DNA of 32,312 bases, from contig CAJFJY010000008.1 of assembly GCA_904384205.1 (NCBI GenBank), forward strand, positions 1-32,312. Direction: 5' to 3'. Numbering within the stretch: the first letter of the stretch is position 1; each line of letters begins with the position of its first letter. The notes beneath the pieces are model-generated. The model had not been told where the DNA came from. It saw only the letters and a list, made by a program, of their open reading frames with translations, and made no database searches. The position numbers and the translations under genes were made by a program. Shown piece by piece: positions 1 to 5,660 of this stretch. This stretch comes from an uncultured Clostridia bacterium. GTDB lineage: Bacteria; Bacillota; Clostridia; TANB77; CAG-508.

Positions 1-38
1 TACATCCTTTTTTCTTCTTCTTCATAAACTTTTGACAT
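1..38 (-). CDS. 5' end of an unidentified gene running off the left edge
   Basis: The first 12 codons of a minus-strand gene are visible, starting at the ATG whose complement is 36-38 and reading M-S-K-V-Y-E-E-E-E-K-R-M. A perfect AGGAGG ribosome site lies at 47-52 (complement), 8 bases before the start, so a real translation start is likely. The product cannot be identified from 12 residues. It runs opposite to the element genes on its right and probably still belongs to the mobile element, because the other half of dacF is not seen here. Confidence 0.6.
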   Translation of the reverse strand, partial: MSKVYEEEEKRM

Positions 39-153
39 CTTAAAAACCTCCTAAAATTTTGATGTTTTTATATTACATCTCATTTTAGAAGGTTTCAATA
101 CGTCTTTTTGTTGACCGCTTACCAAAGGATAAATTTTTTAAAAAGAAAATTTG

Positions 154-195
154 GCGTAGATTTAGGTGAGTTTATGCTGATTTTTACATCTACGC
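154..195. repeat. 8-bp inverted repeat between divergent genes
   Basis: GCGTAGAT at 154-161 is repeated inverted as ATCTACGC at 188-195, separated by 26 bases. It sits between the minus-strand gene at the left edge and the plus-strand element genes. It could be a regulator-binding dyad, a hairpin or part of a transfer origin; nothing in the sequence decides. Otherwise 53-228 holds no gene that I can support. Confidence 0.4.
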
Positions 196-228
196 AATAG
201 GAAGTGTGGATGTGAGAATTGTTGTTAA

Positions 229-384
229 TTAACTAATAAACAAAGATATGTAATTATAAATTTTTATTTTAAGAATAAATCTTTGGCTTTTATTGCAGAG
301 AAAATGAATTCAAATATTAATGCAGTTGAACAGTTAAAAATAAGAGGTTTATTAAGTTTAAGAAGATATATGGAGGAAAAATAA
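229..384 (+). pseudogene. 3' remnant of a sigma-70-like factor (region 4 helix-turn-helix)
   Basis: An open stretch without a good start codon or ribosome site ends with TAA at 382-384. Its last 34 residues (S-L-A-F-I-A-E-K-M-N-S-N-I-N-A-V through R-G-L-L-S-L-R-R-Y-M-E-E-K) have the pattern of a sigma-70 region 4 helix-turn-helix: an IA-E turn, a recognition helix and a terminal LRRY. In clostridial and Tn916-like elements a small sigma-like gene commonly lies next to an HTH_16 gene, which is what follows 4 bases later. The simplest reading is that the 5' part was lost. In-frame ATG (304) or TTG (283) starts could give a 26- or 33-residue peptide, but neither has a clear ribosome site. Confidence 0.4.
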
Positions 385-388
385 TTAT

Positions 389-601
389 ATGGAAAAAACA
401 AAATTTTATGAATTATTAGTAAAGGCAAGACACGATGAAACAACACTTATATTTGTTATAGATAAGATTATGCCAAAAATAAATAAATGTTCACAAGATG
501 AAGATGGAAATATAGATGAAGAATTAAAAAGTCATTTGATTGAACATGCAATTAAAGTAATTAAAAATAAGAAATTAGCAGATAAACTAGCGAAAAATTA
601 A
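389..601 (+). CDS. HTH_16-type conjugative-transposon protein
   Basis: A 70-residue protein matching the pattern of the helix-turn-helix conjugative transposon-like domain (HTH_16, found in Tn916-family elements). The N-terminal FYELLVKAR helix is followed by the IMPKINKCS segment, a short D-E-D-G-N turn, and the IDEELKSHLIEH helix, as in the family's G-x-x-D-E-D-L motif. In this family such proteins are thought to regulate element genes, often beside a sigma factor. The ribosome site GGAGG at 372-376 lies inside the preceding remnant, so the two were probably translationally linked. Length is normal for the single-domain form. Exact function is not known from sequence. Confidence 0.7.
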   Translation: MEKTKFYELLVKARHDETTLIFVIDKIMPKINKCSQDEDGNIDEELKSHLIEHAIKVIKNKKLADKLAKN

Positions 602-619
602 AAAAATAAAAAAATTTTT

Positions 620-930
620 AATTTGCCCATAAAATTTTCAATTTTCAATTGTTGTTAATAGTAGGAAACAAAAAATTTCTACTTTTGATAGCACATTGAA
701 AATTGAATATGGGTTCATTAAAAACGTTCTATTATGGGAGCTAGTTTAAATGAGGATACAGAACCTCATACTTAAATATAAGTTAGCCACTTATAAGGCG
801 AAGATCGTAATAGTTATAATGATACACTTGCATAGCCTTAACTCATCGTATAGGGTGCAACTCGGCTGCTAGCGGAGTGGTGGGATTCCAGTGAATGATT
901 TAGCTAGTCATTGTTAATGAAGTAAAAATA
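620..930 (+). ncRNA. candidate structured RNA of unknown class
   Basis: This 376-base gap between genes has no credible reading frame but strong structure. CCCATA (626-631) and CAATTTTCAAT (639-649) pair with TATGGG (708-713) and ATTGAAAATTG (695-705). Inside that stem, AGTAGGAAA (660-668) can pair with TTTCTACT. Then come ATGAGG/CCTCAT (750-755/764-769), ATAAGT/ACTTAT (778-783/789-794), ACTC-x-GC/GC-x-GAGT (860-878) and AATGA/TCATT (894-912). By my count 52 of the 120 bases from 781 to 900 are G or C, far above the flanks; in AT-rich genomes this marks structured RNA. The 820-895 stretch vaguely recalls group II intron domain I, but I see no GUGYG 5' end, domain 5 or reverse transcriptase. 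Ends and strand are estimates. Confidence 0.5.
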
Positions 931-977
931 AAAAATGCAATTGATTTGAATTAAAAAATAAAGTTGGAGGTATAAAA

Positions 978-1169
978 ATGTTAGACAAAATTGCGATGAT
1001 AACATTTTTAGTAATATATATAATTTTTCTAATTATTACTATTTTTATGTATTTAGTAATAGTAGGTGCAAGTAAATGCAAAACAGAAGAAGAAAGAAGA
1101 TTTGAAGATGAAGAACAAATGAATTATTTAAGAAATTATAAGAATGGAGGTAAAACTAAAAATGAATAA
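978..1169 (+). CDS. small single-pass membrane protein of the element
   Basis: A 63-residue protein with one hydrophobic helix at about residues 5-31, then a charged cytoplasmic-looking tail rich in Glu, Arg and Lys (from about residue 34). Ribosome site GGAGG lies 7-11 bases before the ATG. It overlaps the next gene by 8 bases, so both are likely co-transcribed. I do not recognise a family. Small membrane proteins of this sort are common among accessory genes of clostridial integrative elements; no function can be assigned. Confidence 0.65.
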   Translation: MLDKIAMITFLVIYIIFLIITIFMYLVIVGASKCKTEEERRFEDEEQMNYLRNYKNGGKTKNE

Positions 1170-1392
1170 ATTACCTAGTACATTAACTAAAAATCAAGCT
1201 ATTGCCTTTGCAGTAGTAGCTTTTAATAATTTTATAAATTCAGGAAATACGAGTTGTTTTGATATTTCCACCATAGAAACTTTTTATACTGGAGCAATGG
1301 AGGCTCATAATAAAAGTTTGGTTGTGGAATTTGCAAATGACTTGAAAGAAAGTCATCCAGAAAAAATGAAAATAAATATTGAAGAAATTTAG
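1162..1392 (+). CDS. 76-residue hypothetical protein of the element
   Basis: The start at 1162 is chosen because GGAGG at 1146-1150 precedes it; an earlier in-frame ATG at 1144 overlaps that ribosome site and would add six residues. The protein has no membrane segment and begins M-N-K-L-P-S-T-L-T-K-N-Q-A, followed by predicted helices (AIAFAVVAFNNFI, TIETFYTGAMEAHNKSLVVEFAND). It ends just before a strong terminator, so it is the last gene of a small operon with the preceding membrane protein. Family not recognised; probably an accessory protein of the integrative element. Confidence 0.7.
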   Translation: MNKLPSTLTKNQAIAFAVVAFNNFINSGNTSCFDISTIETFYTGAMEAHNKSLVVEFANDLKESHPEKMKINIEEI

Positions 1393-1405
1393 GATATAAC
1401 AGAAG

Positions 1406-1432
1406 CCGATATAGTTAATATATCGGTTTTTT
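1406..1432 (+). terminator. Rho-independent terminator
   Basis: CCGATATA (1406-1413) and TATATCGG (1419-1426) form a perfect 8-bp stem with a 5-base loop, followed by six T residues. It ends the accessory operon before the recombinase module. Confidence 0.9.
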
Positions 1433-1481
1433 GAATAAAAAAATTTTTTGTACATAGTTATTGAATATGAGGTGTTTATAA

Positions 1482-1634
1482 ATGAAAAATGAAGATAAAA
1501 ATACTTGTACAGAAGATAAGAAATGCAACGAAATAAACTTCTCTGTTGCCTTTAAAAAGGATGGAGATAGTTTCCAAAGTATTATGGAAAAAATTTTAAT
1601 GAGTAAAATAACTAAAAATATACAAGAACCTTGA
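1482..1634 (+). CDS. TnpW-like small transposon protein
   Basis: A 50-residue protein starting at ATG 1482, with GAGGTG at 1469-1474 as ribosome site (7-base spacing), and ending at TGA 1632-1634. The C-terminal half, I-N-F-S-V-A-F-K-K-D-G-D-S-F-Q-S-I-M-E-K, resembles the conserved core of TnpW (a beta-strand of the form YTVxVHF, a K-x-D/S-A/G-D/E turn, then a helix ending in K-I/L-x-R/K-L). TnpW proteins are encoded next to serine recombinases in clostridial transposons and have no established biochemical role. Its place 60 bases upstream of the first recombinase fits. The N-terminus has two cysteines (9 and 15). Confidence 0.5.
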   Translation: MKNEDKNTCTEDKKCNEINFSVAFKKDGDSFQSIMEKILMSKITKNIQEP

Positions 1635-1669
1635 TATTTTAGCAAAAGTACGTTATAAATATATCAGGG
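1629..1669 (+). repeat. hairpin between tnpW-like gene and recombinase
   Basis: CCTTGATAT (1629-1637) can pair with ATATCAGGG (1661-1669) over 9 positions including one G-U pair, with a 23-base loop. It overlaps the stop codon of the small gene and lies just before the recombinase ribosome site (AGGAGG, 1684-1689). No T-run follows, so it is not a standard terminator; it may limit recombinase expression. Confidence 0.35.
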
Positions 1670-1694
1670 TGTTTATAATGGTTAGGAGGCTATT

Positions 1695-3341
1695 TTGAAC
1701 ATCGTAAAAGAAAATAATCAAGAATATAAGGCTGCAATTTATATTCGATTAAGTAAGGAAGATGGTGATAGAGAAGAAAGCGAGAGTGTTACAAATCAAA
1801 GAAAAATCTTAAAAGCATTTGCAAAAGAAAATAAATACAAAATTTATGATGAATATGTTGATGATGGATATACAGGAACAAATTTCAATAGACCAGATTT
1901 TAAAAGAATGATAAAAGACATTGAAAATAAAAAAGTAAATATGGTAATTACAAAAAGTTTATCAAGACTTGGTAGAGATTACATAGAAACAGGAAGGTAT
2001 ATTGAAACTTATTTTCCAGAAAATGAAGTAAGATATATTGCAATATTAGATGATGTAGATACATTTTTAGATAGAAATTGCGATACAGTAGCATTTAAAA
2101 ATATTATGAATGACTATTATGCAAAAGAAACTTCTAAAAATATTAAGAAAACCAAAAACAAAAAGAAGTTAGAAGGCTTTTACTATACATCTTATGCTCC
2201 ATTTGGATATAGAAAAGTTAGTAAATCAGGAAATCTCGAAATTGATGAAGTACAAGCAGAGATTGTAAAACGAATATATAACTTATTTCTTGAAGGCAAA
2301 GGAACATATCAAATAGCAACGTTATTAACAAAAGAAGGTATAGAACCTCCTGGATTACAGATGAAAATGACATGTGTAGTAAATAATATAACAAACACAA
2401 CAGATAAGTGGAATCATAATACAGTTAGAAGAATTTTATCTAATCAAATATATATTGGAAATTGTGTCCAAAACAAAAATAAAAAGATTAGTTATAAGAG
2501 TAAAAAAATGATTTCATTACCAGAAGAGGAACATACAATAACTAAAAATCATCATAAAGCTATAATTCCAATTGAAAAATGGGAATTAGTACAGAAAATG
2601 CTTGGAGTACACAAAAACGCTAAAATTAGAGAAACTGATGTTATGTTCAAAGGTTTATTATATTGTTCACATTGTAATAATAGGCTTTCTATTAGAACAA
2701 AAGTAGATCATAATAAATCAGGAGATGTAACAAGAAGGTATATCTATTGTGGTACAGCTAGCAAAAAGATTTCTAATAAGCCTTGTTATACAAGATATAT
2801 AAAATATGATATTTTTGAAGAACAGGCTCTTTCTAAAATTGCAGAAACATTAGAAATGTATATAAATTCAAATGCTTTTAAAAATGAAGATGCTTTGAGA
2901 AAAATACTAGAATCGCAAAGTAATAAAGGTAGTATTTTAAAAAAGATAGAAAAACTAAATAAAGATTTGGAAAAAGTTAATAAGAAAATAAGCACATTAT
3001 ATAATGATAAACTAAATGGATTATTGGAGGAACAAGATTTTAAACTTTTTTCAGATGGTTTAGTTAATGAACGCCATAGAATTGAAAAAATCTTAAAAGA
3101 AACTGAACTAGAATTAGAAAGTTTTGAAGAAGATTCTACAAATAATAGAATAAAATCAGACATGCAGAAATTTATAAAAAAATTATCTAAAAGTAAAGAG
3201 TTCAATAAAGAAACCATTAATCAATTAGTTAATAGAATTGAAATAGATAAAGATAATAATGCTGTAATATATTTTAATTTTTATGAATTAAATTGTATTG
3301 GAGGACAAATAGAAGATGTCAAACAAGCAAGTAATTTATAA
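1695..3341 (+). CDS. large serine recombinase 1
   Basis: A 548-residue large serine recombinase, which would cut and rejoin DNA at att sites through a phosphoserine intermediate. The catalytic domain spans about 1-155, with Ser20 in IYIRLSKEDGD and the Arg cluster SLSRLGRD at 88-95. The recombinase domain follows (YAPFGYRK at 167-174, NTVRRILSN at 242-250). A zinc ribbon has Cys324, Cys327, Cys352 and Cys364, and a coiled coil runs about 412-478. Length and order fit the TnpX/TndX type. It starts at TTG 1695, 5 bases after AGGAGG. Its last 26 bases overlap the start of recombinase 2, so the two are translationally coupled. It looks intact. Confidence 0.95.
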   Translation: MNIVKENNQEYKAAIYIRLSKEDGDREESESVTNQRKILKAFAKENKYKIYDEYVDDGYTGTNFNRPDFKRMIKDIENKKVNMVITKSLSRLGRDYIETGRYIETYFPENEVRYIAILDDVDTFLDRNCDTVAFKNIMNDYYAKETSKNIKKTKNKKKLEGFYYTSYAPFGYRKVSKSGNLEIDEVQAEIVKRIYNLFLEGKGTYQIATLLTKEGIEPPGLQMKMTCVVNNITNTTDKWNHNTVRRILSNQIYIGNCVQNKNKKISYKSKKMISLPEEEHTITKNHHKAIIPIEKWELVQKMLGVHKNAKIRETDVMFKGLLYCSHCNNRLSIRTKVDHNKSGDVTRRYIYCGTASKKISNKPCYTRYIKYDIFEEQALSKIAETLEMYINSNAFKNEDALRKILESQSNKGSILKKIEKLNKDLEKVNKKISTLYNDKLNGLLEEQDFKLFSDGLVNERHRIEKILKETELELESFEEDSTNNRIKSDMQKFIKKLSKSKEFNKETINQLVNRIEIDKDNNAVIYFNFYELNCIGGQIEDVKQASNL

Positions 3342-4881
3342 TGTAGGAATGTATTTAAGGCTAAGTAAAGATGATGGTGATGATATTGAAAGTGAAAGTA
3401 TAACTAATCAAAGAAAATTAATTAAAGACTATATTAATAAAAATGAAAATATGAAACTATATGATGAATATGCTGATGATGGATATAGTGGAGCAAATTT
3501 TAATAGACCAGATTTTCAAAGATTACTAAAAGATATTGAAAGCAAGAAAATTAATATGGTTATAACCAAAAATTTAGCAAGATTAGGTAGAAACTATATC
3601 GAAACAGGTAATTATATAGAAAAATATTTTCCAGATCATAGAGTTAGATATATTGCACTATTAGATAATATTGATAATTTTAAAGAAAGTGTTAGTAATG
3701 ATTTTGTTCCAATTAAATCAGTATTTAATGAAAAACATTGTAGAGATACATCTATTGCAGTAAAGAAAACTAAAAGAAGAAAAATGGAGGAAGGATTTTA
3801 TGCTTGCAATACAGCACCTTTTGGCTATAAAAAGGATCCTGATACTCCTGGAAAACTGATAATAGATATCGATGCCAGTAAAACAGTAAAGAAAATTTTT
3901 GATTTGAAATTAAAAGGATATACTGCAAATGAAATCGTTAAATATTTAGACAAAAATAAATATGTTACACCAGCTGAATATATGAAAATTAGAGGGCAAG
4001 AACATATTGAAAATAAAAATTTATGGCGAAGAAGTACAGTAAATAGAATTTTGTGTAATAAGGTTTATCTAGGGCATTGTGTAAGAGGAAAGACACAAAA
4101 CATTAGTTATAAATCTAAAGACAGAATTTTTGTTAAAAGAAATGACTTTATAATTACTAAAAATACTCATGAACCAATAATATCAGAGGAAGTATTTGAA
4201 AAAGTACATGATACTAAAAAATATGGAGCAGTAAAAGAGTATAATGAAACAAACTATCTTTTAAAAGACTTAATTTATTGTAAAAATTGTGGCAAGAAAC
4301 TTATTTTTAAGAAAGTAAGAAAAAGAGTTGTTATTTATTGTAGGAATCATGATGAAAACCCTAAATTATGCAACAATAATTGTAGATTAGATTATTTTAC
4401 AATTGAAAACAAAGTATTTGAATATATATCTAATATGTATAAGGAATACTTAAAAAATAATAGGGTAAAGGACAACCTTTATAAAAAATATACCGAAAAT
4501 GTTATTAAAGTTTTAGAGGAAGATTTAAAACAATTAAATATATCTTTAGGTCAGATTAACTTTAGAATAACATCATTATATAATCAAAGATTGTCAGAGA
4601 AAGTAAGCGAAGATGATTACAAAAATAGATATAATACTCTTATTGAACAAAGAAAAGATTTATCAGATAATATTGCTGATAAGGAAAAAGAAATTAAAAA
4701 AGAAAAGAATAAATTAAATACTTTAAATGAAAAGAAATCGATTCTAAAGAAAATTGAAAGACTTGATAAAAAGGATTTTAAAAATGTAAATTTTGAGGAA
4801 TTGATAGAAAAAATTGAAGTATTAAAAAAAGAAATACAAGTTAATTTTAACTTTGCAGAAGTAGGAAAATTTAAAGTCTAG
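3316..4881 (+). CDS. large serine recombinase 2
   Basis: A 521-residue paralogue of the preceding recombinase. Ser17 lies in MYLRLSKDDGD, the Arg motif is NLARLGRN (86-93), the recombinase domain has TAPFGYKK and STVNRILCN, and the zinc ribbon uses Cys322, Cys325, Cys342 and probably Cys352. A long coiled coil runs about 395-490. The ribosome site GGAGG (3300-3304) is inside the first gene. It is as complete as its partner, so neither is an obvious pseudogene. Tandem serine recombinases occur in SCCmec (ccrA/ccrB) and in some clostridial elements, where both can be needed; whether these act as a pair is inference. The gene stops at the edge of an att-like palindrome. Confidence 0.95.
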   Translation: MSNKQVIYNVGMYLRLSKDDGDDIESESITNQRKLIKDYINKNENMKLYDEYADDGYSGANFNRPDFQRLLKDIESKKINMVITKNLARLGRNYIETGNYIEKYFPDHRVRYIALLDNIDNFKESVSNDFVPIKSVFNEKHCRDTSIAVKKTKRRKMEEGFYACNTAPFGYKKDPDTPGKLIIDIDASKTVKKIFDLKLKGYTANEIVKYLDKNKYVTPAEYMKIRGQEHIENKNLWRRSTVNRILCNKVYLGHCVRGKTQNISYKSKDRIFVKRNDFIITKNTHEPIISEEVFEKVHDTKKYGAVKEYNETNYLLKDLIYCKNCGKKLIFKKVRKRVVIYCRNHDENPKLCNNNCRLDYFTIENKVFEYISNMYKEYLKNNRVKDNLYKKYTENVIKVLEEDLKQLNISLGQINFRITSLYNQRLSEKVSEDDYKNRYNTLIEQRKDLSDNIADKEKEIKKEKNKLNTLNEKKSILKKIERLDKKDFKNVNFEELIEKIEVLKKEIQVNFNFAEVGKFKV

Positions 4882-4926
4882 TGTCTAAATTGTACACTCT
4901 ATGATTACAATGTACAAAAATAGCAC
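4881..4926. other. attP-like palindrome centred on GA
   Basis: Two inward-facing arms, GTGTCTAAATTGTAC (4881-4895) and, on the other strand, GTGCTATTTTTGTAC (4926-4912), are placed symmetrically about the dinucleotide GA at 4903-4904. This is the layout of a large-serine-recombinase attachment site: two half-sites around a 2-base crossover. Tn4451 (TnpX) and Tn5397 (TndX) are known to use GA. It begins at the last base of recombinase 2, the usual place for attP. The same arm occurs again at the dacF junction (5019-5040). That the recombinases bind here is inference. Confidence 0.6.
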
Positions 4927-4973
4927 AAATATTTTCCTACTCGCAATTGAATTTCATAAATTAAAAAATAAAA

Positions 4974-5001
4974 AAAATTGAAAATAAAAATTTTCAATTT
5001 T
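4974..5001 (-). terminator. terminator after the truncated dacF
   Basis: AAAATTGAAAAT (4974-4985) and ATTTTCAATTTT (4990-5001) form a 12-bp stem with a 4-base loop. Read on the minus strand it is followed by a long T-rich run, which suits transcription coming from dacF; on the plus strand the tail is weaker (TTTTAAAATTT). It lies within the element and would end the broken dacF message 6 bases after its stop codon. Confidence 0.65.
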
Positions 5002-5006
5002 AAAAT

Positions 5007-5660
5007 TTAGAATTTTTTGTGTCTTAATTGTACCTTATAATCATTTGCAGAATTTACACAAATTGCTTTTAGCATTTCATCTACTGTTAAAGTTTCTCTT
5101 GTATCAAGCCATATTTGAGAACCACCCATAGAAGCAGCGTTTTCACTACAAGGAACTTGATCTCCCAATGATATTTTGCCATTTGCTAAAGATTCCATAA
5201 TTAATAATATACTCATAACTTTGGTAACTGAAGCAGGTCTTAATTGCTCATGAACATTATGAGAATACAATACTTGACCTGTTGTTTGTTCAATCAATAT
5301 AGCTGATTCAGACTCTAAATTAAGAGGGTTATTTTCATCAGTAGAGCTATTTGTCTCTAGTGTATTGGAATTTTCGTTTGAAGAATTTGTAGTATTTGAA
5401 GTATTGTTAATGTTTGAATTAGTACTTACACTAGAATTATTTGTACCTTGATTTATTGCATTTGTAATATTAGAAGTATTAGAGTTAATTGAAGAGTTTG
5501 AATTATTATTTGAAATATTAGTATTGTTAGATGTATCATTTAGTGGCGTGCTTGTAGAAGACCATACATAAACACTATCATCAGCAAAACAAGGAACAGT
5601 TATTGAAAATAGAATAACTAAAATTAAAAAAATCGTAAAAGAAAATTTTATTGGTTTCAT
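5007..5660 (-). pseudogene. dacF: D-alanyl-D-alanine carboxypeptidase truncated by element insertion
   Basis: The surviving 5' part encodes a signal peptide (1-26), an Asn/Ser/Thr-rich linker (about 41-106) and the start of the transpeptidase fold. The SxxK motif is Ser144-V-T-Lys147, and the SxN motif lies in V-N-S-A-N-D (202-207). After Asp207 the reading changes to Y-K-V-Q-L-R-H-K-K-F and stops; the family normally continues for over 150 residues, including the KTG motif and a C-terminal membrane anchor. The protein would trim pentapeptides in peptidoglycan, but without KTG it should be inactive. The break lies exactly at a GA core next to a recombinase arm, so it is an insertion. Ribosome site AAAGGAA precedes the ATG at 5658-5660. 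Confidence 0.85.
5019..5064. other. element/dacF junction (att half-site hybrid)
   Basis: GTGTCTTAATTGTAC at 5019-5033, then CTTATAA, then TC at 5041-5042 (GA on the minus strand). From 5043 on, the bases are ordinary dacF codons. The left part matches the arms of the palindrome at 4881-4926, best against its right arm read in reverse (TTGTAC, TT and TAATCAT shared at the same spacing). The GA belongs to the Asp codon of dacF. This is the expected look of a hybrid att site made by a GA-specific serine recombinase. Confidence 0.65.

Follow-up and report, generated by a model that had tools for sequence, protein, structure and literature searches.

The element that interrupts a dacF-like gene in the DNA studied here very probably has two attP-type sites of opposite polarity, and its paired recombinases would integrate the circular element into dacF through either site and in either direction. 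The window, by which we mean the whole 32,312-bp stretch of DNA that was analysed, is the entire contig C8 of a draft genome (G000) of 1.49 Mb in 86 contigs; all genomes used are multi-contig drafts. An element is said to lie in orientation A when its recombinases read the same way as dacF and its right end is joined to the second half of dacF, and in orientation B when it lies as in the window. The two sites are called P1 and P2, and the features are as follows.

1..5042, plus strand: right-hand part of the integrated element, which continues leftward beyond the contig
1695..3341, plus strand: large serine recombinase 1, 548 aa, with Resolvase, Recombinase and Zn-ribbon domains
3316..4881, plus strand: large serine recombinase 2, 521 aa, with a 26-base overlap with recombinase 1
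4881..4926, plus strand: P1, the whole attP-type site, beginning on the last base of the recombinase 2 stop codon
4903..4904, plus strand: GA, the P1 crossover core, where close orientation-A relatives switch from element to dacF
4905..5018, no strand: AT-rich 114-bp stretch from the P1 core to the P2 arm, its orientation common to both kinds of relatives
5019..5040, plus strand: P2 half-site c, whose partner half d is L012 8628-8649 at the left end
5041..5042, minus strand: used crossover core, TC on the plus strand and GA in the reading direction of dacF
5041..5660, minus strand: first half of the dacF-like D-alanyl-D-alanine carboxypeptidase gene, cut in its NSAND codons, with the second half on contig C58
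Contig C58 of the same genome, L012 8626-9055: left end of the element

Both recombinases contain all three domains above curated cut-offs and are of the size of large serine recombinases (~500-550 aa). The best profile match of recombinase 2 to a solved chain is TnpX (2mhc), in the N-terminal part only. From these features the cassette would be classed as a large-serine-recombinase integrative element with paired recombinases and two inverted attP-type sites. An Rfam pemK RNA match (48.8 bits, gathering cut-off 34.8) lies inside the element at 816-894 on the plus strand, upstream of two small ORFs.

The original prediction described three copies of a recombinase arm. The arm GTGTCTAAATTGTAC is indeed present exactly at 4881-4895 and, with one mismatch, at 5019-5033 as GTGTCTTAATTGTAC; the inverted copy at 4912-4926 matches at only 9/15 bases. 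The GA at 4903-4904 and the TC at 5041-5042 each lie 22 bases from the start of their arm, and the TC marks the start of dacF sequence, as predicted. On C58 the end of the element reads GTGTTTTAATTGTACAGACTAT-GA and is followed by dacF. Joined together, the two junctions give P2 as 22 bp, TC and 22 bp, with one GA common to both halves. P1 and P2 have opposite polarity and their cores are 138 bases apart. A whole attP-like palindrome had also been proposed; the site is whole, and its palindrome is no better than chance. P1 has 13/22 pairs; 60 shuffles of the window each gave a GA/TC-centred palindrome of 14-16 pairs at best, and the unshuffled window contains other GA/TC-centred palindromes with 14 and 15 pairs. 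As a palindrome alone P1 is within chance, and symmetry by itself is no proof. Unlike the palindrome, the resemblance of P1 to reverse-complemented P2 exceeds the window background: 35/46 positions agree, and the best other 46-mer of the window on either strand reaches 26. P1 is not clearly nearer to its own P2 than to those of other elements (35, 33 and 36 of 46 in the row for G000). Across the 1.49-Mb genome, the arm with up to 2 mismatches occurs 6 times versus 5 for a backwards control, so the motif is not scattered beyond chance. The three closest occurrences, with 0, 0 and 1 mismatch, correspond to both arms in the window and to the left end of the element on C58. The flanks of P1 contain an 11-nt perfect inverted repeat (4860-4870 / 4931-4941). 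An extended inverted repeat around P1 was considered as a sign of fused ends and rejected as weak: the alignment score of the two sides was reached in 11/1000 shuffles with arms and flanks, and in 90/1000 with flanks alone.

We take the target gene to be dacF, a name that is presumptive; the profile search itself gives Peptidase_S11, and this match ends at profile position 111 in the window half. Of 292 family genomes, 183 have an uninterrupted dacF-type site. None of the 14 genomes of this sample found to have a split dacF, the window's own among them, has one, and the other 95 also gave no match. The empty sites retain a single GA at the break point. Both the left end of the element and the empty site, which the original prediction had proposed as a check, were located. 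The left end is on C58, and the empty sites include L270, where the right-flank genes of the window adjoin an uninterrupted dacF, and L273, where a left-flank gene of C58 (valyl-tRNA-synthetase-like by reading) adjoins an uninterrupted site; L271 and L272 match dacF only. Because the empty sites and the split halves have one GA, the break lies at GA. This places it at 5041-5042 and not elsewhere, and agrees with the proposal of GA as the crossover. In G000 the second half of dacF goes out of frame soon after the junction, near L012 8541-8560 on C58, which may reflect post-insertion decay or an assembly error.

A near-identical element lies in the same gene, in the other direction, in a genome of the same genus (G399). 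Positions 227-4913 of the window align with contig C36 of G399 over 4,687 bp at 99.85% identity, with 7 mismatches and no gaps. The window copy is in orientation B and the G399 copy in orientation A, facing opposite to it and joined to the second half of dacF exactly at the P1 core. As read from these sequences, each site serves as a natural junction in one of the copies (P1 in G399, P2 in the window), and the predicted arrangement of a whole attP-like site beside a used half-site of opposite polarity holds in the window. Four close relatives (G399, G040, G037, G294) have their junction precisely at the P1 core, immediately past recombinase 2, and in all four the left half of P1 is the used junction; in G342 a cargo gene lies between recombinase 2 and the junction. 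Searches with the dacF pieces and with the element ends in the window and on C58 did not recover the left end of the G399 copy, and P2 is unseen there. At window 227-231 (L276 11096-11473) the G399 copy has ~378 extra bases, with 227-231 present on both sides; either DNA was inserted there and 5 bases were duplicated, or the window has undergone a deletion. Window positions 121-231 match G399 exactly and 1-120 differ; the element is likely rearranged, or has different cargo, at 1-120.

The close match of these two copies bears on the proposal that P1 is left over, as a relic, from a nested or tandem second element and now has no role. The second site is altered or absent in most relatives, and the 11-nt repeat in the P1 flanks is what would remain of two right ends fused head to head; both fit a relic. 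However, only 114 bp lie between the P1 core and the P2 arm, with no second recombinase set there, and the 99.85% identical element joined to dacF at the P1 core indicates that the left half of P1 was a working end recently. We regard a relic as very improbable; the idea may describe the origin of the site pair rather than its present use.

Two further sets of elements point to two usable sites. If the circle has both sites, an orientation-A element is expected to have the right half of P1 next to the first half of dacF, and a whole P2 further inside. G439 has this arrangement and is the mirror of the window, with P1 used and P2 whole: CTGTGGCGTACAAAAAAAGCAC follows the GA (the P1 half beside the first half of dacF), and then comes a whole P2 with a TC core. 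The core-to-core distance is 137 in G439 versus 138 in the window. A second lineage, with GAAC-type arms, repeats the arrangement. P1 is whole and P2 used in G206 (orientation B), P1 is used and P2 whole in G022 (orientation A), and the core-to-core distances are 222 and 221. Each site has therefore been observed both used and whole among otherwise alike elements. The segments between the sites in these two (198 bp in G206, L079; 197 bp in G022, L090) contain a third arm-like copy (CCTGTC...TTTTTGA) at the same place.

In all three A-B pairs compared, the between-site segment points the same way. Aligned directly versus flipped, it gives 93/114 versus 69/130, 84/119 versus 67/132 and 164/199 versus 106/224. 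This constant order is as predicted for one circle that integrates through either site. The same alignments weigh on the suggestion of an invertible 138-bp end, or of an element that flips in place by recombination of the whole P1 with one junction. In favour of a flip, P1 and P2 are inverted and alike (35/46), CcrAB reportedly also recombines non-canonical pairs of sites (PMC5595907), and the A118 integrase is reported to recombine attP with attP at <5% of the attP x attB rate (PMC3556126). Either flip, however, would reverse the segment relative to the dacF ends, and in the three opposite-orientation pairs the segment keeps the circle's own order and no flipped form is seen. Flipping is thus extremely improbable as the source of the two orientations, and low-rate inversion may occur within a population.

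Both orientations are common among relatives. Recombinase 2 relatives were collected from 292 family, 385 order and 210 genus genomes, samples that overlap, and from genome contigs. Among them 25 elements were found in dacF and 24, the window included, were classified; G293 was left unclassified and dropped from the counts, as its contig ends 2 bases past the GA. Orientation A is seen in 13 elements (G399, G040, G294, G037, G439, G273, G118, G144, G229, G022, G281, G320, G342) and the window-like orientation B in 11 (G000, G079, G206, G103, G131, G284, G376, G437, G459, G535, G504). G439 and G284 were classed by half-site sequence and not by recombinase direction. The first-half junction alone is seen in G131, G376 and G535, and in effect the second-half junction alone in G399, G040 and G294. 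G399 is the same as G292, the genome behind L044, with identical dacF places. Related recombinase pairs that end at another gene (G280, G415, G475, G472) were excluded; these sister pairs (loci L025, L172, L279, L280) have TC/GA near the switch to the non-dacF gene. Weaker relatives, at ~39% identity and below (L030 and L031 among them), were left out except for G320 and G342. A recombinase profile search of viral contigs gave 42 loci, none above 39% identity, and these were not used. On the recombinase 2 tree the 24 classified elements imply 6 changes of orientation, of which at least 4 are forced by starred branches; the tree without G439 and G284 again gives 6 changes, at least 4 of them forced. 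Shuffled orientation labels give a mean of 8.2 changes, and out of 500 shuffles 40 (A) and 59 (B) do with as few as 6, so orientation tracks descent only weakly. The right-end contig of G293 (end of L045) and the contig with the first half of dacF in G040 (end of L094) both stop exactly 2 bases past the GA. This is the point at which attP, junction and empty-site sequences would diverge, and the stops may reflect mixed forms in the sampled population.

The unused site has met different fates. Its region is assembled in 20 elements and lacking for G284, G399, G040 and G294. The site is whole, with a GA/TC core and a 16-bp centre, in 4/20 (G000, G206, G439, G022). It has arms but an altered core or spacing in 7/20, namely core AA in G079, core AA and a spacing of 17 in G535, spacings of 13 in G504, 18 in G437, 17 in G459 and 17 in G037, and core TT in G229. 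No site or half a site was found in 9/20 (G376, G103, G131, G281, G273, G118, G144, G320, G342). The palindrome scan missed GAAC-type sites (G206, G022, G229, G459), which were read by eye; elsewhere "none found" refers to the scan together with reading by eye. Elements with two whole sites are thus in the minority, and part of the mixture of orientations could come from independent lineages with a single site each. In L017, L277, L278 and L095 the arms of the altered unused sites are complementary at 11-14/15 positions and more symmetric than those of the window P1 (9).

The absence of a second site is informative where both recombinase genes are present. Two recombinases and two sites invite the reading that recombinase 1 recognizes one site and recombinase 2 the other, a possibility raised in the original prediction. 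But G273, G320 and G342 have both genes and no second site in the left-end scan of 295-321 bp; since the scan misses GAAC-type sites, the first 250-280 bp of these ends were also read by eye. Moreover, both sites target the same attB and the same GA. One site per recombinase is an exceedingly unlikely arrangement. Two alternative attP sites appear to be a better reading of the sequences than any of the three explanations first offered.

Under the reading with two alternative attP sites, a circular form with P1 and P2 as inverted attP sites would arise before each insertion, and the same recombinase pair would act on both. Serine integrases can pair attP and attB either way, and products form only when the central dinucleotides are parallel (PMC3783163). 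The asymmetric dinucleotide alone specifies direction for A118 (PMC3556126), and by analogy with this core dinucleotide the central GA alone would set direction here. GA in P1 and TC in P2, each recombining with the same attB, would then give opposite insertions, and later loss or alteration of the unused site would fix the direction in most lineages. A more speculative extension, which we put forward as a tentative idea with the odds against it, is a self-reversing cassette. Its circle would offer two inverted attP sites to one host site, each insertion would draw a direction, selection would disarm the spare site, and direction would become a heritable switch. The direction would determine if transcription from the host dacF promoter runs with or against the recombinase operon. 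Disarming at the core or spacing with the arms kept would leave a site that is bound and does not recombine; the arms are kept and the core or spacing is altered in 7 of the 11 elements with a recognizable second site.

We recognized no precedent for two inverted attP sites, or for insertion by a serine recombinase either way, in the available parts of the open-licence literature, nor in those of PMC3783163, PMC10083194, PMC5595907 and PMC5704250. Text matches to "two attP sites" were, in the portions available, unrelated counting, attP x attP reactions in vitro and a Xer-integrated phage, and provided no precedent. Serine integrases are valued for yielding a single product, in a single direction, from one attP and one attB. 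A family of two-site elements is a case from nature in which to test how direction is chosen and later locked, and a definition of ends that assumes a single attP could misplace the ends of such elements by ~138-222 bp.

Several known systems share parts of this design. The serine phage integrases (Bxb1, phiC31, A118) are alike in that attP consists of inverted arms around a direction-setting dinucleotide (PMC3783163, PMC3556126, available parts). They have one attP and one direction, whereas here two attP-type sites of opposite polarity and both directions are seen. The gin element in gerE of Bacillus cereus is likewise a non-phage element with several serine recombinases that splits a gene, and it leaves gerE during sporulation through one of its three recombinases (PMC5595907). 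It differs in that the available part of its description contains no second site, and in that dacF in G000 has an out-of-frame second half.

SCC elements (CcrAB) are similar in their two adjacent large serine recombinase genes; here the two genes are adjacent in all relatives with both assembled. SCC is also matched in that the five complete relatives (6.6-13 kb) contain cargo and, among the 19 proteins tested in them (larger ORFs only), gave 0 matches to a relaxase family. Relatives of ~36 and 43 kb, as well as G144 and G118, lie outside this set, and the middle of the window element lies off contigs C8 and C58. The cargo of the five includes NUDIX, a DegT-type aminotransferase and a UvrD-like helicase, as well as candidate defence proteins (PDC-S01, PDC-S02, WYL). 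Unlike SCC, the target here is dacF and there are two inverted sites, and the Ccr equivalog models give 50.7-107.4 bits where their cut-offs are 700-900. The TnpX/TndX elements (Tn4451, Tn5397) share a large serine recombinase and insertion within a gene. TndX cuts at GA, and Tn5397 carries this dinucleotide at its two ends and once at the joint (PMC3672683, available part); the window element is similarly bounded by GA on both sides, and its empty site has a single GA. It departs from them in having two adjacent recombinases and not one, a fixed target in dacF, and a second, inverted attP-type site inside the element.
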